DNA of 64,000 nt from Craterostigma plantagineum. Lineage: Eukaryota; Streptophyta; Magnoliopsida; Lamiales; Linderniaceae. The notes under the pieces were generated by a model, which was given only the letters and a program-made list of their open reading frames with translations, was not told the DNA's origin and ran no database searches. A program made the translations under genes and the position numbers. The stretch lies in NCBI GenBank assembly GCA_027422505.1, contig JAPQWV010000124.1, positions 1,488,001-1,552,000 on the forward strand, read 5' to 3'. Below, one piece after another: positions 1,201 to 44,013 of this stretch. Each line of letters opens with the position of its first letter. Positions within the stretch are counted from its first letter, which is position 1.

Positions 1201-3237
1201 TTAAGGGCTCTTAATCTTGGGCTTGGTGCTCAAAATGAACCTCCTAAGTGCTATCAACAAAACCCATGTTGTCTTTGTGATCTTCTCCTTTATCATCAAA
1301 AGGAGAGCAGAGCTTAGAACAGTTTTTAACATCTGGGCTTGCAAGCCTTTGAAGAAACCAGGTATCCCTTCTCTTTCCCAGATAGAGTAAAGCGTTGCCG
1401 ACGCTGTTTTGCGAGATTTTTTTGGCGCTTTTTTATCTTTCTCTTCTTCATTTGACTTAGCAGACTGAATCATCACTTTACACCTGTCCATATACTACCA
1501 TGCCTTAGCAGAGAACACCAAATTTGCGTAGGAAAGTACTTAAAAAGTTCGTATGGCGCTCCTTAAACGTATAAGACATAACACGAGAGAGAATGAAGAA
1601 CTTGACTATGCTTTGTTAGAAGATACAGGTGGACATATCACCTTATTGCAGGATAAGTCAAACATGTTGCGATACACTTAGAGGCCGCACCCAACATGAA
1701 GGCGGTAAATGCAGAAAGTGCTTCTTGAGATGATATATCATCTCCGTTTCTTCTCATCTTTTCTTTTAACATTCTGTTCTTCAACTGATCAAAAACAGTG
1801 TACTGCATCACATTACATTACAAGTTAGAATTTATCGATCAGAATTTTCTATTATTAGACTGAGGCAAAAAGGCAGATTGAACGATTCATAAAATCAAAC
1901 ACCAGTTACAGATGGAGAGAGTAAGGGAGAGATTTCATAAAATGGTACCTGTATTGAAGGATTTGTTGTTAGAAGCAGAGAGATGCCTAAACCATCAAAC
2001 GCATCACTCCAAGTACCTTCAGATAGGGACTCTAACAACCCCTTAGATTTACCAAAGTCACTTGTTTGCATTCTTGAAGATGCTGTATCAAGCGGCTGCA
2101 ATAACTAACTAACATCACAATATGGATAACAAAATGTATTTGCAGTGTAACCAGCAGAAAGATTGTGTATATCATGTAAATATAGTATATGATATTTAGT
2201 TTTTACATTAGGATCCAATAAACCACACAGAAAATATCCCCCCAGCACTTTCACATAACAAAACTAATACGCAGCATGGGTTCTTGGTAAAAAAAAAATG
2301 GCATTAATAAGTGGTAATTGCTACTTGCCTGTGTCACTATAGCTGTGCATGCACCTGCAGCAGCAGCAATGACCAAGTTTGCAGTTGTTCCTATTGACTT
2401 AGACTTGCTTTCTCTTAAGTACAGTCTCTTAAAAAAACTGTATCCGTAGAAATATACAAATTGTGAAATGAAAGACTGCAAATTCTTCGTCCCCAAGCCC
2501 TGGTACAGCGATATTATTTGACCTTTTGATATTGCTTCCCACAGAACATCTGAAATATTCCTGTTGACGAAATATTAACGCATTTGAGTAACTGACCAAA
2601 CGCTGATTTTATACAAATAAGCAACTGAAAAAGAATTTTATGTCTACTAGTCATTTAACTATATGCATCCACATGGGATTTCTTTTTAGTGAAAACTAGT
2701 ACCGAACCAAATGTTCCCTTCAGCATGAAATTATATGAGAATTTTATACCTAATTATCCATTGCATAACACAACACCAAAGAACCCACTGAAAATCAAAT
2801 TTAATTAAGAAAAGAAATCCAAAGTTACTGCCAAAAACAATCTATCATTAGCCCCAAAGTTGCATCTTTTATACTTAAGGCCAGTTACTTACTCCAGTGA
2901 TTCATTCTAAAGACTAATAATCACTGCAATCAGCACAAAACATAGAACGACCTCGCAAAACAAAGCAGCTTCTACAAGCAAAACTAAAACGAACAATCAA
3001 TCACCACGAAAACCCGATAAATTCTAAACCAAAAAGAAAACAAACCAAAGAAAGAGAGAGAGATAAAAAAAAAAATAGTATAAATCTCACAAACCTGTAT
3101 CTTTGGTAATCATGAACTCTATTTTCAGCTTGGTACTTGGTTTTACAAGTGTCGAGAGGGTACAGCACGGTCGTACTGACCAGCGCACCAATCGCACCCG
3201 ACGTCGCCTCAACTACCGACTCCATATCGAACGCCAT
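1201..3237 (-). CDS. PNC1: Peroxisomal adenine nucleotide carrier (PNC1/PNC2 type)
   Basis: A mitochondrial-carrier-family protein that exchanges ATP for AMP/ADP across the peroxisomal membrane, which fuels fatty-acid activation for beta-oxidation. Five minus-strand exons (3237-3095, 2560-2329, 2095-1949, 1802-1642, 1483-1201) join in phase to 321 residues, close to the Arabidopsis PNCs. Three carrier signatures are visible: YPLDTCK in exon 1, PLDTASSR in exon 3 and the degenerate YPAIRCK across exons 4 and 5. FFKGLQAQ and [13 protein letters not shown] near the C-terminus are strongly PNC-like. The start is the ATG of [17 protein letters not shown]. Intron 2 has a GC donor (CAG then GCAAGT): the nearby GT, four bases further on, would put a stop two codons into the next exon, so only the GC site keeps the PLDTASS motif in frame. 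PNC1 and PNC2 cannot be separated by eye. Confidence 0.93.
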
Positions 3238-3649
3238 CTACGGAAACAAAAACATCTATCTCACACAAAACGTCGAAAACTAAAAGAACTGAGTAATCAG
3301 AAAATGATCGCCGCTGATAGTTGAACCTGGTTAACGGAGACAGCGAGGGAGGACGGTGGCGATCAAATTCAATACAATTCAACGGAGGTCGTCGTTTAGG
3401 TGATCGCTTCTGAAATCGTGTCATGAATTTGGGAATTTCGATGCATTTTTAAGTATGGGCGTCAATCGCATACTGGGCCCCACTTTCTCCTACCAAGCAT
3501 GACGAAATTGAATTCATATTTGTTTATTTATTTATTTCTTTTGACCAGACTTGAGTCCAAATGCAATAAGGATACGTAAACCGAATAAATACTTTTATGG
3601 AATGGATATAAATCGGAAGAAAAATGAGTAAAAGGCTGGTGATTATATG

Positions 3650-4072
3650 TAGGGGTGGTAAACAGGTCGGGTTGGGTCACCTTCGGGTTCAACCCATTTA
3701 ATAAACGGGTTGAAAACTTCAACCCTGACCTGACATGTTTATTTAAACAGGTTGAAAAATCAAACTCAAACCCAACCTGTTTTAACCCTAACCAAACCCG
3801 CCAACCCGTTTAAAATTAAAAAAGAGAAGAAAAAAAAGACAAAATTCAGAATTATAAATCCAAATTAAACAAAACAAGGAGAACTAATGCAATTTTTTTT
3901 TTCTAAAAACGGCATGTGTGAGCGTGAGAGTGAGTAGAGAATTAGGGTTAATCCTTTTATTTTATTTATATGAATAATATGTTAATAATATATATTATTC
4001 GGGTTAAATGGTTGATTTCAGGTTGATTCCGGGTTGATTTCGGGTTGAAAATCCGAACCCTAGACAGCCCTA
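3650..4072. mobile_element. Non-autonomous hAT element (MITE) with 8-bp target duplication
   Basis: A 423-bp element flanked by identical 8-bp copies of ATTATATG (3642-3649 and 4073-4080). Its ends are inverted: TAGGGGTGGTA on the left and TAGGGCTGTC (reverse complement) on the right, matching the TAGGG-TG ends of plant hAT elements. Both sub-ends are full of GGGTTGA and AACCC motifs, such as the string of GGGTTGATTTC variants near 4010-4050, which could be transposase-binding sites. No transposase frame is present. Confidence 0.85.
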
Positions 4073-4080
4073 ATTATATG

Positions 4081-5889
4081 TATCGTAGCTTTATGAAGTG
4101 AAATACTATTTTAGTAAAAACAAATAAATCAAGAATTGTGATCTATGTGGGCTGAGCTGGGTCACAAATTTCTATATGTGCTTTAGTATGGGTTACGAAG
4201 CCCAACTTAAATTTACTATTAATGTGAATTAATAGATTTATATATTAAATCAATTGGTAACACCATGATTTCTTTTCATACCTTGAGAAGCATTGGGTTG
4301 AAAATGAAAACCATTGATATCATCAACCACCCAAGAACTCGAAAGGCACCTATGAATTATCAAGAGGCTTATGAAATTAATACTTTCAAATAAAAAATGC
4401 CACCACTTCGTAAACTACACGTAGAAAAAATATTCACACAGATAAACTCAATGGTGGAGAATGAAAAAAACTCAATTACCTGATGCAGTTGATACCTCCA
4501 TTGACAGAAGTTATTAGCATCACAACACTAATATTCACCAAATCACTTAATCTACTCGGAAAATTGCAGAAATAAATATTGATGGGGCAATTAACGAAAT
4601 CCATTAGCTTAATTTTGAACGAAGGAGGTTTATATATAATATATATATGTATATTTGTCGGAAGTTTTGTTGTTGAGCTCCTTTGCAGAAATCGAAGGGG
4701 TTTTACAACTATAGAGGAACGGCCCACATTATCAAGACTTGATCTCCATTCTCCGTATGTCCACCTATTTTTATGCGGTGTTTATTATTTTCAGTAAATG
4801 CCAAAATTTTCATATAAGATAATGGATAAATAAAAGCTTGCTCAACTACAATAAAAAAAATACAGGAACAGATACATAAATAAGTATATTACTTTTTTTT
4901 TCATAATGGCACGTCAACACGTGTATTATGTATTCGTTATTCCAAGTTTGACGACCAAAAGTCAATGAGCAGATTATCTAAAACTCTAGTTTACTGCTTA
5001 AAATTAGAATATGTTAAAAATAATAGTAAAGAAAATCACCGAATGCCTATAAATGATAAAATAAGCCGCCTTTGACATTAATCGTGTTCTCTTACACTAC
5101 ACCGATTCTCATGTTTCGCTCTTATCTTGCACTAATTAATGTCCGCGAACTCGGTGATGAGATTATGCCTTTCCTTTTACGCAATCACTCAAAGATTTGT
5201 TGTCACCATTTTATTAACATCTAATCATATATAGTTATAATATAATGAAATTATGAAGTAGTACTCAAGGAAGTCGAGCTGTATTTTAAAACAAAGAAAG
5301 TCCAACTACTTCGTTGACTTAGGTTTCGTGTGCATATTCAAAACGTGATGCTGCCATTAATTACCACGAGTGACCATTGACTTTTGTCTTGTGATGCCTT
5401 TTTATTACAAGTCCAAGTAAATTGAGTGCATGGGTTCGTCGTCTACATCTATTCGATACTACATTGAATTGTATCACACAAGCAAATTTCAAATAACTGA
5501 TTTTATTTATGTAACTAAGTATAGAGGTAAGATGGCTCGGGATTTCTTATTATAGCAACGTAGCAACGTGAGCATGAGAAATCATTTCGTATTTCCTTAA
5601 AAAATCTCTGCAATAATTATGTGAAACGACAATGCCATTAATTTTCTATACATCGACGACTTTCCTTCACCGATATTGAGCATGATTTTTCGTGTAGAAG
5701 TTAGTTAAACTACGCTAATCATTGCCATCTCTCACCATTTTTATAATAGTGTTAGGTTTTTGATTTGTTGTTAATACTTCTAACAGTATCCTAAAGATAC
5801 TATATATTCTCAACCAATCCCAATATATATACTATCGATCTTAGCATATTACTCAACTCCACAAAAGGGAAGAGCAAAACTTATAGTAT
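4081..5889. other. Intergenic region upstream of the peroxidase
   Basis: About 1.8 kb of AT-rich sequence between the hAT element and the peroxidase start codon. Small frames between 4476 and 4797 overlap on opposite strands and show no family features. The last few hundred bases should be the peroxidase promoter, with TATA-like runs near 5801 and 5823. I see no other gene. Confidence 0.55.
5801..5808 (+). promoter_or_regulatory. Probable TATA box of the peroxidase
   Basis: TATATATT lies about 90 bases before the peroxidase ATG, with CCAATCC just after it and a second TATA-like run at 5823-5832. The distance suits a short 5' leader. Which run is used cannot be told from sequence alone. Confidence 0.4.
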
Positions 5890-10948: not shown

Positions 10949-13900
10949 CTAAGACGGCGACATGATCTGAAAAGCTTCCCTAGCTTTCCCCAACATGTTA
11001 AAAACCGTAGCTGCAATATGAGAAGGCGTTAGCCCAGCTTCCATTATTTGATCGGCTGGCGATCCATGGTCTATATACCTATCAGGTAAAACCATTGGCC
11101 TCCACTGCACATAATAAAATATTCAAAATTTTCCATTATTTCCTATAAGAAAATAATTTATATATAATCATTTAATATATCACTCACCTTCACTTTCCCA
11201 TCATCAAGCAATCCATCTAGAGCCATGAACTGAACCACGTGGGACCCAAAGCCTCCTATGGACCCTTCCTCGACCGTAATAACCACCTCGTGGGACCTAG
11301 CCAAGCCCCTTATGAGCCCGCGGTCCAACGGTTTGCAGAACCGAGCGTCGGCCACAGTCACCCTCAGACCGTGCGACTCGAGAAGGGCAGCTGCGGCTAA
11401 GCAGCTCTGAACCGCCGCACCGTAGCCGAGAAGGGCCACTCGCTCACCTTCCCTGAGTATTCGGCCCTTACCGATCTGAGATGGAAAACAAACATCCCAT
11501 GTTGGTTGTTCCGATATCCATTCAACTATTTTTTTTACCGTATGAGTTAAGAGGGTGACACTTTCGGGACAATCATGGATTGCAATCTTAGCACTTTCAG
11601 GACACGGAATTGCAATTGACACTAACTTCCACGTGCGAAGCAATTCAAGAGATAAAAAAAGAGGGGCCAATCGGATGCCACATCACCCAATTCCCGATGA
11701 CGTGGCGGTCCACATTGAAGCTAACTGGGGTTGTTGGTGTCAAACTCAAGTCCCACATCGGATAAATCGAAGAAGTTGGTCAAGTATATAAGCTCGTGAA
11801 CTAACTCTCTCTATTGCCAGTTGGTTTTAGAGAGGAACCCCACCCACAAGCTTATATGGGCTGAGTTTGGCCTGTGACTGGGTCAAAAAAAATTCCTACA
11901 CAGTTGAACCCCAAGTCATCAGATATCCCTATTGTTCTTAAATTGCTTCAATTTTGAAAGTTACTGCACTAGAATACTGCAAGCCCCTTAAGTCGGGCTC
12001 CCCGAAAGTGCCGCACCCTAAACAGAAAATTTCATTACCTCGAGAGGCTTCCCCTTATTGCCCGGCGGAAGCTCGACCCCGACGCCATTGCCCCTCGGGT
12101 ACCTAAAGCAGCTCGGCCGGTCGTCGATGGCCGCCGCCGTGGCCACCACGTGGAAGAGCTCCGCCTCGTCGGAAGGAGCCATGACCACCATGTTCGGAAG
12201 GCAAGCCATGAAGGTCACGTCGAAGGCCCCGCAGTGGGTGGGCCCGTCAGCCCCGACGAGCCCGGCCCGGTCCATGGCGAACCTCACGGGGAGCCTCTGA
12301 AGGTCGACGTCGTGGACCACCTGGTCGTAGGCTCGCTGGAGGAATGAGGAGTATATGGCGCAGAAGGGCTTCACGCCCTCGCACGCCAGGCCGGCCGCGA
12401 ACGTCACCGCGTGCTGCTCGGCGATCCCCACGTCGAAGCACCGAGTGGGGAATCGACGCTGGAAGAGGTTGAGTCCCGTCCCGCCTCCCATGGCCGCGTG
12501 GATCGCCACGACGTCTTTGTCGGCTTCGGCCTCCGCAATCAGAGCCTCGGCGAAGTAGTTGGTGTAGGACTGAGTCCGCGCGCTCGACTTGAACTGCTTC
12601 CCCGTCGCCGGGTCGAACTTGACCACACCTACCGAATCGGAGAAAGATTTTTCCCTTTTATTTTGCCAAGATTTTTCACCTTGCATTTATATATATCTAG
12701 CAAGATTGATATTTTTTTCAGCCATATAATTTAGGGGATGGCATTATACGAATAGAGAATTCACGGGGCGGCATTACACAGACAACTACTTTCACAAAAG
12801 TAAGCATTTTGGGGACATCATATGCTGAAAACCTCGAATATGTCTAAAAATTGCTACTTTTGATGGTCATTGTCCGTATATTGTCACCCCCTAAATACGC
12901 CCGAACCATAGATTATATGCTGAAATCCTAGAATTTGGATCGGAACAACAAATATAGGGTGTGACGTTACACATTATAACTTTTAGAATCAAACAATTTA
13001 GAGACATTATATGCCAGAACCCTAGAATTTGGGACAAAATCCAAGATTACGGAGTATAATGTCCTTAAATTGCTTAATTTAAAAGTTATTATTCGTATAA
13101 TGTAACGCCCTGAATTTTGTATCCCTATAATATGACCCCTCTTAAATTACAGGAAGGGAAAAAAATAATGAAGCCATACATACCATGATACTTGTCGTCT
13201 GCTTTCTCAGCATAAGGGTATCCCCGTCCCTTCTCGGTGACGACGTGGATCAAGACGGGCCCCGTCGTCTGCGTGCTCTTCACCTCCTTAAGAATGGCCG
13301 TGAGGTCGTCGATGTTGTGCCCGTCGACCGGGCCGATGTAGTAAAGCCCGAGCTCTTCGAACAGGCTCGACCCGGACCCGCTGATGAGCCCGCGGGCGTA
13401 CTCGTCGACCTTCGCCGCCAGCTCGTGCATGGGCCCGCCTATTTGCTTGGTCACTCCCTAACCGAACAAAATCAAACTTAGCTTGCGAAACTTTCACAAA
13501 TGATAATAGTATCGTCGCAAGAAAGGCCAACCTTGGCAACTTCTCTGAGCTCTCTGAGCGGTCGGTTAGACTGTAGCCTACTCAGAGCACTGCTCAGTGC
13601 GCCCACGGGCGGAATTGGCCCGTCTAAATTAGCCGTAGGCAACGAAACTTGCTTGTTATCGTTGAGTATGACGATCATGTCTGAATCTAAGTAGCCAGCG
13701 TTGTTCATGGCTTCGTAGGCTTGGCCAGCTGTCATCGCCCCGTCCCCTATTACAGCTACGACATTGTTCTTTCGACCCTTTAAGTCCCTCCCCACGGCCA
13801 TTCCTGCCAACCACCATAGAATCGAAAATTCTCAACAGTTATAACCAATCATATTCTATTGGATTCTAGCGAAAACGGTTAACGATTTTTTTTTTCGTAA

Positions 13901-15094: not shown

Positions 15095-16153
15095 TTTTTT
15101 CCCTCTTAAATATCGCCTTCCACAATAAAAAGGTTTCAGAAAACTCCAGCCAAATATTAAGATTTTGTTTCCAACCTTTACTCTTGCAGAAGAAAGGGAG
15201 ATGAGCTCTCAGCTCTGAGTTTATTAATGGGCTGCTGAGATTGGAACTAAAAAAAGCTGTAATGACTCTGATTTAGAGAAAAAGAAGGCCGACAGAGAGT
15301 TTGGCTTAATAATGACAGAGAATCCAAAGAATTCTTGACGAATAAAAAGAATGGAGCTTTCCCTTAATTGACAAAAAGAACACTTGTGTTAGCAAATTTA
15401 TAGTGCTAAGGAACTAAAATCAGTAATGGGAATAACGGTGGAGCGTAATGTAAAGAAAGACAAGTGGAGTGATAACGTCCTCATTGGGCCACGTCAGCAG
15501 AAAATCGCAGGAGATAGAAAGTTGATAAGGAGAAGGAAAGGAAAAGGATTGGGGAAGGGAAAGAAAACAAAATATTGTAATCGGTAAAATCGACGTTGAC
15601 TTTCTTTTATAATATTACAATTATCACATGATCCCATTTTCATTCTGTGAATAAGATCTTTTTAATGAAAGATTATAAAGTTTCTGAGCTTATCTGTAGA
15701 CAAATTTTTTCTGAAGTAAATCAGAAAATAAAAATAACTTAATGCCTCGTTAAATAGACTAGTATGTATAACACGCAACGCGTGTAAATATATTAATTTA
15801 TCATATATTTTGAACATTTTATATTATTAATAGGTCATTTAATAAAAAATTAATTTAAGAATAAACTTGTAGTAATATATTAGAATGTTAAATATAAAAC
15901 TATAATTAAGCAATTAATGGTATAGTTATAAATAATTGTGACAGACAAAATTGATTATTCACCATATGCTCTTTAAATAAGAAAATAAATAATATAGGTG
16001 ATAACGATTACCACCAATTAGTAGTCCGGTGATTTTAAAAAAAAAATCGTTTAAGGATGTTACATGCGAAATAAAGTGAAATCTCCATTATACTCTTAAT
16101 TAATTATATTATCTTATTTAATTAGTAACTTCTATTTAAAGATAAGAGGTAAA
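15095..16153. other. DXS upstream region
   Basis: The first few hundred bases should hold the DXS 5' leader and promoter. GCCACGTCAGC at about 15489-15499 contains an ACGT core of the kind bound by plant bZIP factors. The rest, up to the TSD of the palindromic element, is AT-rich with no gene that I can support. Confidence 0.5.
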
Positions 16154-18172
16154 TGTGGCGACCCTCGTTTTCTAATTAAGATTAGTGGCGGATTTCCACA
16201 ACGTAAGTATAATTATATTATTTTTTTCCTAAAAGATAATATAATTTAATAAAATATTATTTTACATAGTAGTATCTGTACAACGGGCGTAGCCCCAAAA
16301 ATGTCAAAAGAACAAAAACCCTATTATCGCTCCACAGGTCTTCATCCATGTACCGTCCTGCCCTCAAAAGTCTGTGGAGCACCGCCACCAGCCGCCTCAG
16401 TCTTGACGCGCGTCGGCGTCAGACTCAGTACCTACAACACGTAAACACTGAGCGATTTGCCCAGTAGGTGAATAGAAATGCATGTATGCACGTGAACGCT
16501 CATTCCCGACCCCAACATCTCACATGCAATGTTCACTCTTTATTTTCCCGCAATCCTGTCTCAAATCACACAACACAGGGCCCTAGGTCAGACTCGACAC
16601 CTCACGCGCCCATAATAATAACATACGGAAGCTTACACTAGCAGCGTTTTGACGATCACGCAACTGCCCTGCTAGGTCGCTCTTCCGTAAGCGGTAGCCT
16701 ACACCGACAGCGTTTTGACGATCACGCAACTGCCCTGTCAGGTCGCTCCCTCCGCTGAAAATAATAACATCACGACGGTTTTGCACCTCGGGACGTTCAC
16801 GCCCGAGTAGACAGATCGATCACGCCTGTCTGCCGTCAGGTGTCATACGAGTACCAACCTCGACTCCTCAACGAGTCAACAACAACAATCACAAACATCT
16901 CATTCTACCCCGCTCGACAATATCTCAAATCAACCGTCTCAATACGGTGTAAATATCTCACCCCTGTGATATAATATGCATATGCCATGCATATAAACGT
17001 GATAACGTATAAAATCATGATCCACATGAAGCGTACGTAAAACATATAAGTCACATAAGTCACGTAAATCACATAATCACATGAAACACATAATTGTGTT
17101 TACGTATTGTAGATGGATAATCCACCTACCTGTCCTCCCGCTAAAATTAGTCGATAATCCTGGTGAATTCCCTACTGTTCGAATCTCTGATCATAGAATA
17201 GTATTATATCAGTATATTTATTAAATCACTTAATTTCGAAATTTTCAAACTCTAAGTCTTGAAACCCTAAAATTATCAAAACCCTAAAATCATGAAAGCC
17301 CTAATTTGTTAAGAACTACTTAGTGCTGAACACTTTGTTGGGGAGGTTAAATGTCGAGGTCTACTATTTGACATTGTCGAAATCTTTACAAAATGTCGTG
17401 ATTGGTTAGGAGTGTGTTAAATGTCGAAATGACATGGAGAAATGTCGAAATGATCTAGGAAAATGTCGAGATATTATAATGTCGAGAACTTTATTTGTGA
17501 AAGGTATAATTATCGATATCTTTCTCGGAACAAGCCATCACATATCGGGTTTATTAAAGGAGTTAAATGTCGAGATAAAGTATAGATGTCGATAAGCTTA
17601 ATAGCTAAATGTCGAAACCTTTTCATAATACATGTCGAGTATCTCAAAATTCCTTTAGGACATATATCGAGATTTTCCCTTACTATACCTCGAATTCTTT
17701 CTATGACACTTCTCGACATTGTGCATTAATATGTCTCGAAATTCTATATGTAAAGCATCTCGAAAACTACTTAGGAGAAAGAGACGAAAATCTTTATAAC
17801 CATATCGAAATTCTCAAGTGTCGACATCTTAGTTATAAATTGTCGAGATCATGGTTTACAAATTCCAAATCCTTATAAGAATTTAATACCTCAGACATTA
17901 GCAAAACTTTATTGGGGAATTTTATGAAGACACAAAAACGTTATTGGTTGCTGTACTACTTATGGAGAAAACCCTAATTATAACACCAAGCTAACCTACC
18001 CTTATATTAATCTTTGAAGATTGGCCTTGTAATAACAATCGTATATTGAACTTTTGAAACTCAAGCTCTTAATTAGATCTAGCATGTTCGAAACTCCTTC
18101 ATAATTAGCATCTAATCACGCAAGTTTGTGAAAATATGTAACTATATATTCGACATAAAAGATCATAGCACA
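16154..18172 (-). repeat. Left palindrome arm: inverted LTR-like unit
   Basis: Read on the minus strand it begins TGTGCTATGATC at 18172 and ends GGTCGCCACA at 16154. It mirrors the right arm almost base for base. The visible differences are one substitution in a CCCGCAATCC/CCCACAATCC block and a replaced stretch of about 14-25 bp near the outer end (about 16208-16225). Confidence 0.9.
17343..17850 (+). repeat. Dense TGTCGA motif cluster (mirrored at about 18548-19055)
   Basis: About a dozen copies of TGTCGA, mostly as AATGTCGA(A/G), plus several reverse-complement TCGACA copies, lie in about 500 bp. Spacing is irregular, so it is not a simple tandem repeat. Because it is in the palindrome, the same cluster occurs in reverse in the right arm. 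The role is unknown; repeated binding sites in an LTR promoter region are one possibility. Confidence 0.75.
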
Positions 18173-18225
18173 GAAAAAAAATCGTCACCTCCTATACTTC
18201 GAGTTCTGTGAATTTAATTAAAGCT

Positions 18226-20255
18226 TGAGCTATGATCTTTTATGTCGAATATATAGTTACATATTTTCACAAACTTGCGTGATTAGATGCTAATTATGAA
18301 GGAGTTTCGAACATGCTAGATCTAATTAAGAGCTTGAGTTTCAAAAGTTCAATATACGATTGTTATTACAAGGCCAATCTTCAAAGATTAATATAAGGGT
18401 AGGTTAGCTTGGTGTTATAATTAGGGTTTTCTCCATAAGTAGTACAGCAACCAATAACGTTTTTGTGTCTTCATAAAATTCCCCAATAAAGTTTTGCTAA
18501 TGTCTGAGGTATTAAATTCTTATAAGGATTTGGAATTTGTAAACCATGATCTCGACAATTTATAACTAAGATGTCGACACTTGAGAATTTCGATATGGTT
18601 ATAAAGATTTTCGTCTCTTTCTCCTAAGTAGTTTTCGAGATGCTTTACATATAGAATTTCGAGACATATTAATGCACAATGTCGAGAAGTGTCATAGAAA
18701 GAATTCGAGGTATAGTAAGGGAAAATCTCGATATATGTCCTAAAGGAATTTTGAGATACTCGACATGTATTATGAAAAGGTTTCGACATTTAGCTATTAA
18801 GCTTATCGACATCTATACTTTATCTCGACATTTAACTCCTTTAATAAACCCGATATGTGATGGCTTGTTCCGAGAAAGATATCGATAATTATACCTTTCA
18901 CAAATAAAGTTCTCGACATTATAATATCTCGACATTTTCCTAGATCATTTCGACATTTCTCCATGTCATTTCGACATTTAACACACTCCTAACCAATCAC
19001 GACATTTTGTAAAGATTTCGACAATGTCAAATAGTAGACCTCGACATTTAACCTCCCCAACAAAGTGTTCAGCACTAAGTAGTTCTTAACAAATTAGGGC
19101 TTTCATGATTTTAGGGTTTTGATAATTTTAGGGTTTCAAGACTTAGAGTTTGAAAATTTCGAAATTAAGTGATTTAATAAATATACTGATATAATACTAT
19201 TCTATGATCAGAGATTCGAACAGTAGGGAATTCACCAGGATTATCGACTAATTTTAGCGGGAGGACAGGTAGGTGGATTATCCATCTACAATACGTAAAC
19301 ACAATTATGTGTTTCATGTGATTATGTGATTTACGTGACTTATGTGACTTATATGTTTTACGTACGCTTCATGTGGATCATGATTTTATACGTTATCACG
19401 TTTATATGCATGGCATATGCATATTATATCACAGGGGTGAGATATTTACACCGTATTGAGACGGTTGATTTGAGATATTGTCGAGCGGGGTAGAATGAGA
19501 TGTTTGTGATTGTTGTTGTTGACTCGTTGAGGAGTCGAGGTTGGTACTCGTATGACACCTGACGGCAGACAGGCGTGATCGATCTGTCTACTCGGGCGTG
19601 AACGTCCCGAGGTGCAAAACCGTCGTGATGTTATTATTTTCAGCGGAGGGAGCGACCTGACAGGGCAGTTGCGTGATCGTCAAAACGCTGTCGGTGTAGG
19701 CTACCGCTTACGGAAGAGCGACCTAGCAGGGCAGTTGCGTGATCGTCAAAACGCTGCTAGTGTAAGCTTCCGTATGTTATTATTATGGGCGCGTGAGGTG
19801 TCGAGTCTGACCTAGGGCCCTGTGTTGTGTGATTTGAGACAGGATTGTGGGAAAATAAAGAGTGAACATTGCATGTGAGATGTTGGGGTCGGGAATGAGC
19901 GTTCACGTGCATACATGCATTTCTATTCACCTACTGGGCAAATCGCTCAGTGTTTACGTGTTGTAGGTACTGAGTCTGACGCCGACGCGCGTCAAGACTG
20001 AGGCGGCTGGTGGCGGTGCTCCACAGACTTTTGAGGGCAGGACGGTACATGGATGAAGACCTGTGGAGCGATAATAGGGTTTTTGTTCTTTTGACATTTT
20101 TGGGGCTACGCCCGTTGTACAGATACTACTATGTAAAATAATATTTTATTAAATTATATTATCTTTTAGGAAAAAGTTTTTATTAGACGGGCCTTCCGCG
20201 ACTTACGTTGTGGAAATCCGCCACTAATCTTAATTAGAAAACGAGGGTCGCTACA
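18226..20255 (+). repeat. Right palindrome arm: LTR-like unit next to the primer-binding site
   Basis: Starts TGAGCTATGATC and ends GGGTCGCTACA, followed after GG by TGGTATCAGAGC. An LTR that ends in CA directly before such a site is in the correct place for a 5' LTR, so this arm is best read as a 2.03-kb LTR in plus orientation. It is the mirror image of 16154-18172 around a centre near 18199. Confidence 0.85.
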
Positions 20256-20257
20256 GG

Positions 20258-20269
20258 TGGTATCAGAGC
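20258..20269 (+). other. Primer-binding site for initiator tRNA-Met
   Basis: TGGTATCAGAGC matches the 3' end complement of plant initiator methionine tRNA, the usual minus-strand primer site of many plant LTR elements including Cassandra. It is two bases after the CA end of the right palindrome arm. Confidence 0.85.
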
Positions 20270-20326
20270 ACACCTCTCGCAATACGGTGCTGGTTCGGGG
20301 ACGAACCAGGCGGAAGCTGGAGGGCA

Positions 20327-20791
20327 TGTGACGCCCGGGGCCGAAGAGGGCGGGGAGTGATCGCCGGTGCCAGGGTGCACGGACAATGAGCGGCTCCTGG
20401 CAGGCTTCTAGGCGAAGGGGTACATGAACGAACCGATCCAACACCAGAATGAGAGGGGATCCTGAGACTGACAATGTATGGGCGTGTCAGGCTAAGAATC
20501 ATATAAAAGAATTGATAGTACTACTCATATCACCAAGGTCGACCTACCTTTTCGGGAGTCCATCTATAGAAACTCCGAAGTTAAGCGTGCTTGACTTGGG
20601 GCAATCTAGGGATGGGTGACCCCCTGGGAAGTTTCTCAGGGTGCGTGTGAGCGAGTGCACGAAGCACGCTAAAAGGTTAAATGGTGGTACAGTGGGGCCA
20701 GACTATCAGTCGGAGTGTGGTGGGCCCAACCCCACTAGTCCCGGTAGGGACCCAAGCTATAATGACACCCGGTATGGGACGGGTTGTTACA
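20327..20791 (+). mobile_element. Cassandra-like 3' LTR
   Basis: A 465-bp segment starting TGTGACGCCCGGGG after the purine-rich GGAAGCTGGAGGGCA and ending GGGTTGTTACA at the GTAAA duplication. It carries a 5S rRNA-like domain in the middle, the hallmark of Cassandra TRIM elements. A matching 5' copy is not present: the sequence in that place is the palindrome arm. Confidence 0.75.
20537..20652 (+). repeat. 5S rRNA-derived domain inside the LTR
   Basis: AACTCCGAAGTTAAGCGTGC (20571-20590) and GGGATGGGTGACCCCCTGGG match the internal control region of plant 5S rRNA (A box and C box), with the usual order and nearly the usual spacing. The first 35 bases and the end diverge from 5S. It is a retroelement LTR part, not a functional rRNA gene. 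Confidence 0.85.
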
Positions 20792-23004
20792 GTAAAATAG
20801 GAAATAATCAAGATATGTTATCTAGAACGCCGTAAAAGGGCTTGTATTTAAAAACAAAGTTAAGATTCTAAGGTTGTAAATCAAAGTGACTTGTTTATAC
20901 AATCGGAAGGCAGTATTAGTAATTTAGGATAAGCTTGTGTTCTAATAGATATATATGTACATTTTTATTTTACATGAGTTAATCTTAATTTAGAAGTATA
21001 TGAAATCGTAGTTTCATTTATCGTTTTAATAGTATATACAATAAAAGATGATTTATGAGGACATGATAAGAATAAATCAAAACGTAAATGATCAAATGTG
21101 ATTATAAACGATAAAATTGACAGATGATAAATAATTTTATGTTTGACGGTGATCTTATTATCTTTAGATATGGCGGTGTTGTGGAGAGGTCGAAAAATAA
21201 AATAAATTAATGGAGATATAAAATTAAATACGTTGACTATACTGTTGACCAAACAAAACCCACCAAACTGCATAGTGACATAACAATCCTAACCACAAAT
21301 AGTTGTCGGGCGATTGATTGATTGCGCACTTTGGTTTTAATTTTAATGAATTCGTACGTGGAATTAGGTACGCCAATAAGCCGTCTATGCCTACTTCTAC
21401 AATTAAATTCGAATTAATTACAAATAAATATATCTCGCGTAATATGAAAGTAACACTAACAAGTGCCAACAACTAATACTTATTTGCTATTGGCTAAGTT
21501 AGGCTCATGATTAACGAAGCTACTTAGGAAAAACTAAGAATCTATTAACTAATTGGATTGAGAGATAGGAGATCATTCAATTCCACATATTTGCGAAGGA
21601 TGTGATGTGATATTACTTCACATTAGTAGGCAAATGGCAACAAGGTCTCTAGCACTAGCAAAAATGGAGATATTTTTTTTCAACTCAATTATAGTTTCAT
21701 AATTTAATTTTATTCAAGGTCCAAGCAAACACTAACAAAATGGATTTTCCACTAAATCACGATAAAATATTATCAAGGAAAGACGAAATAATTCCACTCA
21801 AGTGAGACGTGGCAGTTCAAGATTCATTGGAGGGGTTTTCGCTTTCGGTAACATGAACACGTTCTTCTATAGTGGGTTCGTCATTAAGCTAACGGTCTTT
21901 TATCTATTTATTTATTATTTTCATTTGATAGGACAAATGCCAAGTGATTTACCACTTACCTTTTTAAGCATGGACATAGTATAGTAGCAAAGCTTTGCAC
22001 TTGAAAAAAAAATTAAATGGTCAATCATACTCTAATTAAAAACGAAACGTAATCAAGCGGTCAATTATCTTTCTATTTTATTAGGAGAGACTCACATACT
22101 AACTGTTCCAAAATCAATTGCTGTGATAATTTTTTTATTAAAAAATATTAATTAAAAATAAGTATATTGAAGTCCTAGTTACATAAAAACTGACCATTTA
22201 TAGTATGTTTACTTTGTATTAAATTATTAATAATAAAATCATCAACTACTAATCCATTTTTATTTTATGCACACAAGTAGAGTAGAGTGTGCCTAGTTTG
22301 AAGCGTGGATAAGAAGAATTCTCGAAGATCTACAACAAAACAGAAGAAGCCGACTACACTCTTCTGTGATAATATGTCAACTATTTCTATGACTAAAAAT
22401 TCGGTTTTTCATGCAAGGTCGACCATCTAGATATATTCAACATTCAAATCATCTAGATATTCGATATTCAAACTTGGTGATCTATGTTATTCAAAGTATC
22501 CATTTTTCATTTTATTATTCAAATATGGAAAACACATATTATGTCTAACACACCCTCTTAATATGTGATTTTCAAAGTCATCTTGAACTTCTCAAGTTTT
22601 TCGATAGATACCGCCTCCGTGGCGTAAATAACATGAAGATGCATAAAATAAGTAACATCTTAGCTAAACAGCCGCATTTGTTTTGGAAGTTGGGCCGTCA
22701 TATATAATGGGCCGTTGCATTATATTTTTCTTTTGGGTGGTTAGTGGATAAGGAAATGATTGTACAACTGGAACAAAGTTTTATGTCTGAGAATAATATA
22801 GTAAAGAATATTTTTAAATATGAATGATATGTAAGAGAGACTTTGACCTGAGTCATTCTACCCTTAAACGCTTTAGGGCCTGTCTGGTTGGAGGGAAGAG
22901 TTTAATCGGTATTAGTTTTAGTTGGGTTTAAATAATAGAGGTTATGAATTATTTGAGTGTTTGTTTAATGGGTTTAAATAAAAATGTCGGATGTGTGGTA
23001 TTAA

Positions 23005-31370: not shown

Positions 31371-33346
31371 TCAGCGGTCGTTCATGTCGTGCAGCCTGTC
31401 TCTGTAGCGCTCTAACTGGTCCTGATCGTGGTGCTGCAGCGTAGCTAGCATCTCCGTGCTCAAGGCATACATCAAGCTGTACCACTGCACACATAATTGA
31501 TACATATAAAATTTGATTAAACATACAAATATTTAAAATCCAAATCACATTAAATTACGTACGTAGTCGGTATGGCTGCGCGGGGGGATGCCGCCCGAAG
31601 AGGATCCTGACTCCGACGAAAACAGACGAGGATGAGAATGCCGCTCGTACCAGTCCATGTAACCTTCAACGGTCTCACCAAGGTATTCTGCGGTACTCCG
31701 GCTGATGTACGACAGGTTGAGGATGTACGCGTAAGGGAACTGCCGCCAAGCAGTTTCTGCTGCATCGCCAGAATGGTGCACCTTATACCTCGACGGGTCT
31801 GCTGGCATATACGCCTTCTGCGGCGGTGTCATCGGCGGCGGGATGTGCTGCACGTAACCCAGCTGGCGCAACACTCTAGAGGGTACGTAGGGCTCCACGA
31901 TGTCGCGATATCTAACCCAGCCCACGAAAAGAGTCCTCAGGTGCTGCGCCGCTGGGTCGGGACCGTACGGCAACCAAGCAACCTGATAACAATTTATTTT
32001 GTATTATATAATTGTCGTGAATATGGAATATAAATTGTTAAAATACCTCGCTCGCTGTCATCATGTCTAGCTAACGGCGGATCTCAATCAACCGGTGTCC
32101 TGTCCGCTCGACCTGAGATAAGGACCACATGCGTGATCGTGCATGGCCAGGCTCCACGTGATGGGGTAGACGGTGTGGGCGGAAGCATGGGAAGTACTCG
32201 TAGATCCACGCCTGTAGTAACGACAGGCACCCAGCTAAACCCCTTGCATCCGCTCGGCTTGCGAGCCCAAGCTGGCGATAGAGGTAAGCAAGAGCGGCCG
32301 AACCCCACGAATAATGACTGGCAGATGGCAGGGAGCGATAGAACTCGTGCATGATGTCGGGCTTCACCCGATTCCCGCTCTTGTCGACGAACAGGGTCGA
32401 CCCCAATAGAATCCATAGCCAAGCGATGGCCTGGAATCCCGCCGGCCGACCCTCCCTCATCCTCTGCATCACGTCTTTCGACGCAACCGACCCTGCCCTC
32501 CAAAATCCCCTCAGGGCGTCTGCGGAGACGCCCATAATCTCCCTCGTCGCGATCTGCTGGTCGCCGGCGTCCGGGGTGCCCGAAACCACCGTCCCGTCGA
32601 TCGGGATAAGGAGAATCTGCTCGACGTCGTGGAGCATGATCGTCATCTCCCCCCACGGCATGTGGAAGGTGTTCGTGTCGGGGTGCCAGCGCTCCACAAA
32701 AGCGCACAGAAGAGGCTGGTCCAAGTGTACGAGCATGGCATCTGCGAGGTGTAAGAGGCCTGTGCCATCGATCTCGCTCTGTGTCTCCGGCGGGAATTGA
32801 CAGTACCACTGCTTAAGCTGCCGAAGCACTAACGCCCGCCCCTCGCACTTCAGCAAGGGCCTCTCCTCCTCACCCATCCAGATGCGTGGCGCGATGTGCC
32901 CCAGGTAACTAGGGATCACCTCGCCATCTTGGGGACCACCTGGCTGTGGCCCCTGCACCCTCCAGGAATCGTCATCTACGACCCTGGAGCGCTTGCTCCC
33001 TATTTTATTTTTTAGGAATAACACATAAATAAATTTAAGACACGACATCGCAAGTCAGTTTACAATGAAGAAGGGATGTACCTGAGGAGACCGGTATCGC
33101 ATCGTCGTCGGATGACTGAAACGATGCCGCATCGTATGGCACCTCCTCATCCGCATGCGCCTCCTCCTCTACGTTCGGATCGTATTCCCGGTAGACGGAA
33201 TGCGAATCACCCGCTCGCTGCCGCCTCGCCTCCTCCCGTTCCCTACGAACGGAAGCATCAACGCCGCGCGCCCTCGTATGACGCTCTCCAGATCCCTCCA
33301 ACGAGGGGGATCTGCTGCTCCCTCCGAGCAGGGACTTCCCACCCAT
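31371..33346 (-). pseudogene. Plant mobile domain (PMD/MAIN-like) gene carried by the MULE
   Basis: Four exons (33346-33082, 32999-32047, 31982-31563, 31484-31371) join in phase. The second exon carries the plant mobile domain: PSYLGHIAPRIWMGEE, FVERWHPDTNTFHMPWGEMT, then HDVEQILLIPIDG and SALAYLYRQLGLASR-like text with WIYEYFP. The third has VAWLPYGPD, a usual C-terminal PMD phrase, and ends before a coiled stretch HHDQDQLERYRDRL. One in-frame TAG (32071-32073), nine codons before the end of exon 2, would remove the last two exons. Otherwise the frame is open, so the damage is recent or a truncated product is made. PMD genes occur both as host silencing factors and inside transposons; here it is a transposon passenger. 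Confidence 0.85.
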
Positions 33347-42866: not shown

Positions 42867-44013
42867 TTAAGTACGGTTAATCTGTACAACGACGATCGTT
42901 ATATCATCGGTTCGATTCTCACGCTCTAACCACAACTTGTACGACTCAGCAACCACAGCAGCACAAGCTTCCCTCGGATCAGCATACTTGTTCACCTGCA
43001 AATTTTTAAGGATGAAAGAGTTACTACATAAGCAAAACTAACTTTCAGACAAAGAGGCAGGCAAAACACACTTCACATCATCATCACATTACCATATCCA
43101 CGACAGCTTGGCTAGACAAGAACTCGAAAACCCCATCACTTGCAACAACGAAGAACGAATATTCGGGCAATATCTGCACCACATAAATCTCAGGGTCAGC
43201 AACTACGCCTATCTTCTCAGCCATTCTATCCCCAACGCTCCTCGTAAAAGCAGTCCCAGGGTACATTCCATCCTTCACCCAAACCCTCGGTGGATCGCCA
43301 CCCTCGGTTTCCTCGTCGCCCCAATTCTGAACCGTTGGATCTTTAATCCCTTCGACTTGATCGACGCTCAGAACCCTCGCCCCACAAGCCTTAACTCTCT
43401 CGCACTCGTCTTTCCTAAATGGGGTCTGATCGTGCGATAAATCTTGGGCAGCTACTGCGTTTCCTTCGCCCCTTCTCACGGCCAAAACTGCCCTTGAATC
43501 GCCAACGTTCGATACGTAGAGCTTGTCTCCTATGATTAGGGCTGTAATGGCCGTCGTCCCACTCATTGAATCGTCGATTTCGTTATTACGGTGGAGCTCT
43601 TCGTTCGTCGCCGAGAACGCAGAGCTGTAAGCCATGATGGGATCGTTCAGCAAAGTGGGGTCTTTCGATAGCACATCAATGAGCCTTTCCTTGACGAACG
43701 TCGAACACTGCGCGCCGAACAAACCGTGCCCATCGAACACGCCGAAGAAGTGTACGTTAGGGTTGTCTTGGATGTTAGTTTTAGTACAGTAGCTGTCTTG
43801 ATTCTCCTTGTCTGGCGTGTCTGGGTAATAACCTCGCTGGGTAAGGGCGGAGAAGGTAAGGCTGAGATTGTGGGAAGGAATATCGATGGTTTCTAAGGAT
43901 CTTGACGCAAGAACTTGGGCGTTTTGTTCGTTGTAAATGCCTAATCTTTCCTTTGCATCGCCGTTTGATGAAGATGGATATGTACTGCAACATTTTCCGT
44001 GAACACAGCCCAT
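42867..44013 (-). CDS. Protein phosphatase 2C (PP2C35-like)
   Basis: A Mg/Mn-dependent Ser/Thr phosphatase. Two exons (44013-43093, 42995-42867) give 349 residues. Metal-binding motifs are intact: [53 protein letters not shown] and the final [13 protein letters not shown]. The N-terminus [10 protein letters not shown] carries a myristoylation glycine and palmitoylatable cysteines, so membrane anchoring is expected. [14 protein letters not shown] and GGDPPRVWV are characteristic of the Arabidopsis PP2C35 (At3g06270) type. The start ATG is fixed by this lipidation motif. A short upstream frame on the plus strand (44265-44675) overlaps the promoter and is not called. Confidence 0.94.

Follow-up and report, generated by a model that had tools for sequence, protein, structure and literature searches.

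The window, a 64,000-nucleotide (nt) stretch of the Craterostigma plantagineum genome (contig JAPQWV010000124.1; C124:1488001-1552000), carries a 4,638-bp insertion at 16154-20791 that combines sequence of two retrotransposon families, a chromovirus-type Gypsy element and Cassandra. The insertion has TG...CA ends and GTAAA on either side. From left to right, it is composed of an inverted unit holding the repeat and unique 5′ regions (R-U5) of a long terminal repeat (LTR), a forward R-U5 unit, a primer-binding site, a Cassandra internal region, and a Cassandra LTR. The features, with the basis of each assignment, are as follows.

16149..16153, no strand: left target-site duplication GTAAA (sequence; one copy only at the empty site)
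16154..18231, minus strand: left unit, 2,078 bp, R-U5 of the chromovirus-type LTR, inverse, interpreted as the initial minus-strand strong-stop DNA (alignment to L011/L012 of the C3 element; LTR limits)
16209..16222, minus strand: derived 14-nt block of the left arm (four ordinary copies aligned and the right arm have 25 nt here)
18167..18169, plus strand: AGC, putative snap-back priming site (arm alignment)
18170..18228, plus strand: loop of 59 nt, co-linear with the left unit and absent from the right unit (arm and LTR-copy alignments)
18229..18231, plus strand: GCT, putative 3′ end of the snapped-back strand, a 3-nt match to 18167-18169 (arm and LTR-copy alignments)
18229..20255, plus strand: right unit, 2,027 bp, R-U5 forward, stopping at the LTR 3′ end (alignments)
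20256..20326, plus strand: Cassandra internal region, 71 bp, with a purine-rich tract before the 3′ LTR (alignment to ordinary copies)
20258..20269, plus strand: primer-binding site TGGTATCAGAGC, two bases past the arm end and common to the chromovirus-type element and Cassandra (sequence)
20327..20791, plus strand: Cassandra 3′ LTR, 465 bp (97-99% to the Cassandra copies fetched)
20526..20650, plus strand: 5S ribosomal RNA (rRNA)-like domain in the Cassandra LTR (RF00001, model 1-120, weak match)
20792..20796, no strand: right target-site duplication GTAAA (sequence; one copy only at the empty site)

We searched the 1.71-Gb genome with a query in which both flanks of the insertion were joined with a single GTAAA. 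The search gave 41 rows from the best 40 of 750 candidates scored; two of these were the window's own flanks, and all of the other 39 crossed the join. Six rows matched the joined flanks nearly whole (C2, 93%; C3014, 85%; C54, C21, and C75, 84% each; C5, 80%), and at the paralogous empty site on C2, 51 of 51 bases agree around the insertion point, with one GTAAA. Because all 39 other rows cross the join, the target is a dispersed repeat whose other copies, among those listed, are empty. Thus, 16154-20791 is one integration with one 5-bp duplication, as a first-pass annotation made from the sequence alone had proposed on the strength of the GTAAA at both ends; the duplications and the empty paralogous site in the same genome bear it out. 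The outer ends resemble each other, both being U5 termini (TGTGGCGACCC and TGTAACAACCC), and since they are similar-looking U5 ends, a single integrase could plausibly use both. The observed structure is far beyond chance.

Two other origins were weighed against these data. Inverted repeats are a known type of assembly artifact, and a folded long read might produce one; however, a folded read would neither place one 5-bp repeat beside two dissimilar LTR ends nor agree with an empty site, and the arms differ by two substitutions and a block while the right arm runs on into Cassandra. We regard an artifact as very improbable. Alternatively, the palindrome and the Cassandra LTR could be nested or separate insertions, or the product of an inversion after integration, and nesting of LTR elements is common in plants (PMC1950507). 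Nonetheless, the one duplication around the whole 4,638 bp and the intact empty site contradict such an origin, which we give a negligible probability; the insertion is accounted for piece by piece, with no inner duplication needed.

The left part of the insertion had been described by the first-pass annotation as a palindrome of a 2-kb LTR-like unit. Inverted, near-perfect, LTR-derived arms are indeed present; however, the repeated unit covers just the last ~2.07 kb of an LTR that is 2,560 bp long, and the palindrome is asymmetric at its center, with units of 2,078 versus 2,027 bp and a 59-nt loop. The inner inverted arms (16223-18169 and 18229-20175) extend over 1,947 bp with one mismatch (16550/19848), and the outer inverted arms (16154-16208 and 20201-20255) extend over 55 bp, also with one mismatch (16157/20252). 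They are parted by a single differing block, which is 14 nt in the left arm (16209-16222) and 25 nt in the right arm (20176-20200).

A search of the genome with the arm gave 45 rows, from the best 40 of 7,112 candidates scored. Among these, the best matches were LTRs, the nearest being both LTRs of one C3 element (98%), which lie about 7.2 kb apart, start to start; 11 full-length copies among the matches listed differ from the window arm by 2-6%. According to the paired LTRs and nine aligned LTR starts, the donor LTR begins at TGTAATACCCG, 488 bp upstream of the palindrome center, so the arms represent its last ~2.07 kb (R-U5) without the first 488 bp (U3). The outer end of the left unit is accordingly the U5 terminus, while its inner end lies 488 bp into the LTR. 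In the C3 element, two open frames encode protease, reverse transcriptase, RNase H, integrase zinc-binding, and Tf2-1 SH3 domains above cut-off, with the Pfam order RVT_1, RT_RNaseH, Integrase_H2C2, SH3_Tf2-1; rve (27.8 versus 32.6) and Chromo (21.6 versus 25.1) fell below cut-off. Given this domain set, the donor is a Gypsy element of chromovirus type. The order of reverse transcriptase and RNase H before integrase, with the chromodomain match at the integrase end, belongs to the donor of the arms and not to the insertion.

Comparison of the arms with each other and with the donor family bears on how the palindrome was made. The right arm differs from the two C3 LTRs at 29 and 28 places in 2,005 columns, whereas the two arms differ from each other by 2 substitutions and the one block in total. 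Since nearly all differences from the nearest ordinary LTR are common to both arms, one arm was copied from the other or both were copied from one molecule, and we rejected two different RNAs as the sources of the arms. At 19848 and in the block, the changed arm is the left one, judged by the ordinary copies aligned. The right arm carries T at 20252, a position occupied by C in the C3 LTRs and by T in Cassandra's own LTR end. The 14-nt block includes an 11-nt inverted copy of the adjoining AATTATATTAT; another small fold-back would fit this change, during the last copying step or as a later replication error. If substitutions accumulate at about 1.3e-8 per site and year, the two differences seen over some 2,000 sites would correspond to an insertion age of tens of thousands of years, barring arm-to-arm conversion.

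The center of the palindrome is asymmetric, with the 59-nt loop of the left unit closed by a 3-nt GCT/AGC match. When the genome was searched with the center, all 37 candidates were scored, and only the window spanned it. In the 36 other LTR copies, the match on one strand stops at 18231 and resumes on the opposite strand from about 18226, a switch that is expected for a single LTR compared with a palindromic query. Because the match of these 36 copies ends at 18231, the loop at 18170-18228 belongs with the left unit, and it is at the GCT/AGC match that the right unit begins. The polarity of the loop means that the 3′ end that primed belongs to the minus strand of the left unit, whose 5′ end is at the left end of the insertion. 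That left end (16154, the U5 end of the LTR) is where strong-stop DNA starts, beside the primer transfer RNA (tRNA). Arms derived from one molecule, a loop on the primed strand, and a palindrome end at the U5 terminus beside the tRNA are among the properties expected of self-primed strong-stop DNA, and the insertion shows all three.

A palindrome of this kind might instead have formed before integration by microhomology end joining, head to head, of two unequal R-U5 complementary DNAs (cDNAs), with Cassandra added by a template switch. The center does have only a 3-nt match, which speaks for such joining. However, the arms share nearly all their differences and were not seen to carry different family variants, and the 11 full-length copies of the family differ from the window's arm by 2-6%, so that two RNAs would rarely be so alike unless they came from one locus; in addition, the ends and the loop polarity are what snap-back predicts. 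We therefore consider end joining of two cDNAs improbable.

The suggestion of the first-pass annotation that the structure might be a mobile family with a palindromic LTR found no support, since the center was spanned in the window alone among the 37 scored candidates; a replicating palindromic family was rejected. Two other inverted LTR arrangements, L070 on C27 and L071 on C9, were rejected as copies of the window palindrome because their structures differ. L070 (C27:6439000-6447400) is another case of an LTR duplicated in inverse orientation, here in a divergent relative; its arms (1,115 bp, at 2740-3853 and 4523-5632) are 99.3% identical, and another LTR end and a partial primer site lie between the arms, a structure unlike that of the window.

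If the palindrome derives from strong-stop DNA, its center should lie near the RNA start, that is, at the upstream limit of R. We aligned 17 LTRs, which take in subfamilies with unlike U3 and some near-copies. Mean identity was 0.47-0.64 upstream of a step and 0.82-0.91 after it, and the two 15-column bins that open 25 and 10 columns ahead of the step averaged 0.81 and 0.73. The nonamer AAGCTCAAG is present in all 17 aligned LTRs, and its second base is the first copied base. The alignment suggests that the RNA start lies at or within about 25 bases of the center.

The right half of the insertion is a Cassandra element without its 5′ LTR. Its 465-bp LTR with a 5S domain, recognized at first pass as the right end, was confirmed at 20327-20791. 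The RF00001 match there is full-length yet weak (18.3 bits versus a gathering score of 38; E = 0.38), and no match within the window reached the gathering score; the LTR is 97-99% identical to copies with two LTRs. Ordinary Cassandra copies L002, L003, L004, and L008 have two LTRs and 5-bp duplications; of the usual pair of like LTRs enclosing a short non-coding region, the insertion has only the 3′ one. Its internal region, which carries a 1-nt deletion, agrees with L003 and L004 at 68 of 70 aligned bases and with L002 at 67 of 70. As had been noted at first pass, the forward arm ends just before a primer site: TGGTATCAGAGC, which we take to be of the initiator tRNA-Met type, starts two bases after the arm end. 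The Cassandra part begins within a tract common to both families, GGGTCG..ACAGGTGGTATCAGAGC; it is within this tract, around the shared primer site, that the two families are joined.

A search with the arm-to-Cassandra junction, advised by the first-pass annotation, revealed a recurrence that it had not foreseen: at least 30 further places carry the fusion. The fusion query (20060-20791, comprising the LTR end, primer site, Cassandra internal region, and LTR) gave 54 rows, from the best 40 of 6,408 candidates scored. At least 30 other places show LTR sequence passing into Cassandra; the match begins no later than query base 30 in 21 of them and at 95-118 in 9. The count of 30 is a lower bound, and some places may be assembly duplicates. 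Among the remaining rows, 11 start at 184-186, like ordinary Cassandra, and 12 cover parts of the Cassandra LTR only. The shorter junction query (20180-20330) was crossed at no fewer than 33 other places, among the best 40 of 3,048 candidates, in a list that overlaps with the 30 places. A pattern count of the fusion allowing up to one mismatch (335 forward, 351 reverse) was discarded as unusable as a total, since it includes Cassandra's own LTR ends.

We compared six sampled fusions (L083 to L086, L006, and the window) with 30 ordinary LTR ends in a tree built on 186-198 columns. The approximately unbiased (AU) test rejected a single clade of the six (P = 0.004; P = 0.003 without L006); L041 and L066, odd rows in an earlier 38-row tree, had been dropped before this test. 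In that earlier tree, four label changes were needed, only one of them forced by well-supported branches, and the fusions showed somewhat tighter clustering than expected from label shuffling, with a count as low in 15 of 500 shuffles. L085 and L086 were each other's nearest in the LTR-end comparison. Because the six sampled fusions do not form one clade, the LTR-to-Cassandra fusion is probably of multiple origin.

Several of these loci are complex. In L006 (C1:9717419-9720910) and L005 (C12:17976906-17980397), the Cassandra LTR is directly followed by a second primer site and internal sequence resembling a chromovirus-type leader; they are complex elements joining both families in the opposite direction too. 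In L005, an LTR of another type precedes Cassandra. A simple text search found no target duplications for L005 and L006. Same-strand fusion pairs 5-11 kb apart occur at C15:12453204-12459145, C16:13312342-13323734, and C23:9602344-9607545, and such pairs may be elements flanked by a composite LTR (chromovirus LTR plus Cassandra).

These fusions raise a serious rival to the transfer onto a Cassandra strand, and the main one. The parent may have been one composite element whose RNA started with R-U5, a first primer site, the Cassandra internal region, the Cassandra LTR, and a second primer site. If priming occurred at both sites, two strong-stop DNAs would result, one short and one long, and their 5′ ends would coincide exactly with the ends of the insertion; the same snap-back would follow with no need of a Cassandra RNA. 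The abundance of fusion places in both overlapping lists speaks for such a parent, as do the second primer site and leader-like sequence of L005 and L006 and the spacing of some same-strand fusions (C15, C16, C1, C23), which at 5.1-17.6 kb could be that of the LTR pair of one element. On the other hand, the LTR end of the arm agrees with the ordinary C3 element at 184 of 186 bases and with the five sampled fusions, out of 30, at 94% at most. Furthermore, none of the arm matches listed (best 40 of 7,112 candidates) lies at a fusion place when the lists are compared by eye. On this balance, we judge a composite parent unlikely. The snap-back stands under either parent; what differs is whether a Cassandra RNA was present in the particle.

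Altogether, we consider it probable that the insertion is the fossil of a failed reverse transcription, in which chromovirus-type strong-stop DNA primed itself, was joined at the shared primer site to a Cassandra minus strand, and was integrated by two U5 ends. A tRNA would have primed synthesis at the primer site, and reverse transcriptase would have copied U5 and R to or near the 5′ end of the RNA. Instead of jumping to the RNA 3′ end, the new strand, ending in ...GCT, would have paired with the AGC 62 bases back. Extension of the snapped-back 3′ end through R-U5 into the tRNA would have produced a plus-sense copy of the primer site, and this 3′ end could then have paired with its complement on a Cassandra minus strand, which is the normal second strand transfer with the wrong partner. 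Both strands would have been completed and the hairpin opened, and integrase would have joined the two U5 ends of similar sequence. The broader proposal of the first-pass annotation, a chimeric self-primed cDNA integrated once, is favored by the empty site, the shared arm differences, and the join in the shared primer-site tract.

Several observations weigh against this reconstruction. Since many fusions already exist, Cassandra may have come to the insertion with a composite parent, instead of being picked up in this event. The distance from the upstream TATA-like GATAAATA to the center, about 50-60 bases, exceeds the usual one, and the conservation step is not sharp but spread over about 25 bases. 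This step is also partly a selection effect, because most of the 17 LTRs had been retrieved with a query whose LTR-like part lies wholly downstream of the center; when the full LTR served as query, three divergent loci regained homology from LTR position 450-466 onward, a point 22-38 bases upstream of the center. Contrary to expectation, no stable hairpin was found at the 3′ end of the strong-stop DNA, which was predicted to fold no better than shuffles in the two stretches analyzed (z scores of −0.47 and −0.01), one of which ended six bases short of the junction, and priming would thus rest on a fleeting three-base contact. In addition, the block difference of the left arm must date from the last copying step or later.

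The window also contains gene-like open frames, all on the minus strand, namely, 12018-12686 (transketolase pyrimidine-binding), 32071-33048 (Plant mobile domain), and 43084-44013 (PP2C). The insertion thus sits in a region holding gene-like sequence.

Parts of the proposed pathway have precedents. Human immunodeficiency virus type 1 (HIV-1) strong-stop DNA is abortively extended in vitro, and annealing of its 3′-CCC to a GGG triplet, within the same molecule or between two, has been held responsible (PMC4668388). Both cases would involve an R-U5 cDNA extended on itself or its like from a three-base match; however, the HIV-1 DNA is an abortive test-tube product, whereas the window palindrome is integrated, derives from a plant Gypsy element, and has a 59-nt loop. 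The complex LTR elements of Triticeae (PMC1950507) are likewise fused elements that carry a single 5-bp duplication and have been attributed to a template switch gone wrong, and here, too, one GTAAA duplication and an empty site embrace the whole. They differ in having three LTRs in direct orientation and alike outer LTRs, as from one cycle, while the outer ends of the window insertion are unlike, a chromovirus-type U5 on the left and a Cassandra U5 on the right, and half of it is palindromic. Unlike 5′ and 3′ ends are also found in HIV-1 proviruses with asymmetric LTRs, for which primer-site transfer between two packaged genomes has been proposed (PMC9278108); those genomes are two copies of one virus, in contrast to the two unlike retrotransposon families joined here. 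Finally, the right half of the insertion resembles Cassandra, a terminal-repeat retrotransposon in miniature (TRIM), as described (PMC7215508, PMC10853983, PMC10886601), in its 465-bp LTR, 5S-like domain, 71-bp internal region, primer site, and 5-bp duplications, but it has a chromovirus-type palindrome in place of the 5′ LTR. Among the titles, abstract openings, and passages covered of the open-licence PubMed Central (PMC) literature, we recognized no report of an integrated self-primed strong-stop palindrome or of a Cassandra-chromovirus fusion. Template-switch LTR elements (PMC1950507) and strong-stop self-priming in vitro are already known; their combination as an integrated palindrome was absent from the listings of that open-licence literature.

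If true, the integrated product would mean that strong-stop self-priming happens in cells, that a hairpin can be converted to complete double-stranded DNA, and that two U5 ends on one molecule are tolerated by integrase. As for the recurrent fusions, they point to a chromovirus candidate for moving Cassandra. According to a 2024 paper, there is no indication of which autonomous LTR family mobilizes Cassandra (PMC10886601), and related larger LTR elements have been found for only 11 of 289 TRIM subfamilies (PMC4717578). We tentatively propose, as a possibility rather than an expectation, that chromovirus-type Gypsy elements move Cassandra, which would be copied in the same particles with repeated strand swaps at the shared primer site, this insertion being the sole case seen with a self-primed strong-stop hairpin. 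Primer-site fusions are a direct, countable test of the Cassandra partnership in any assembled plant genome.

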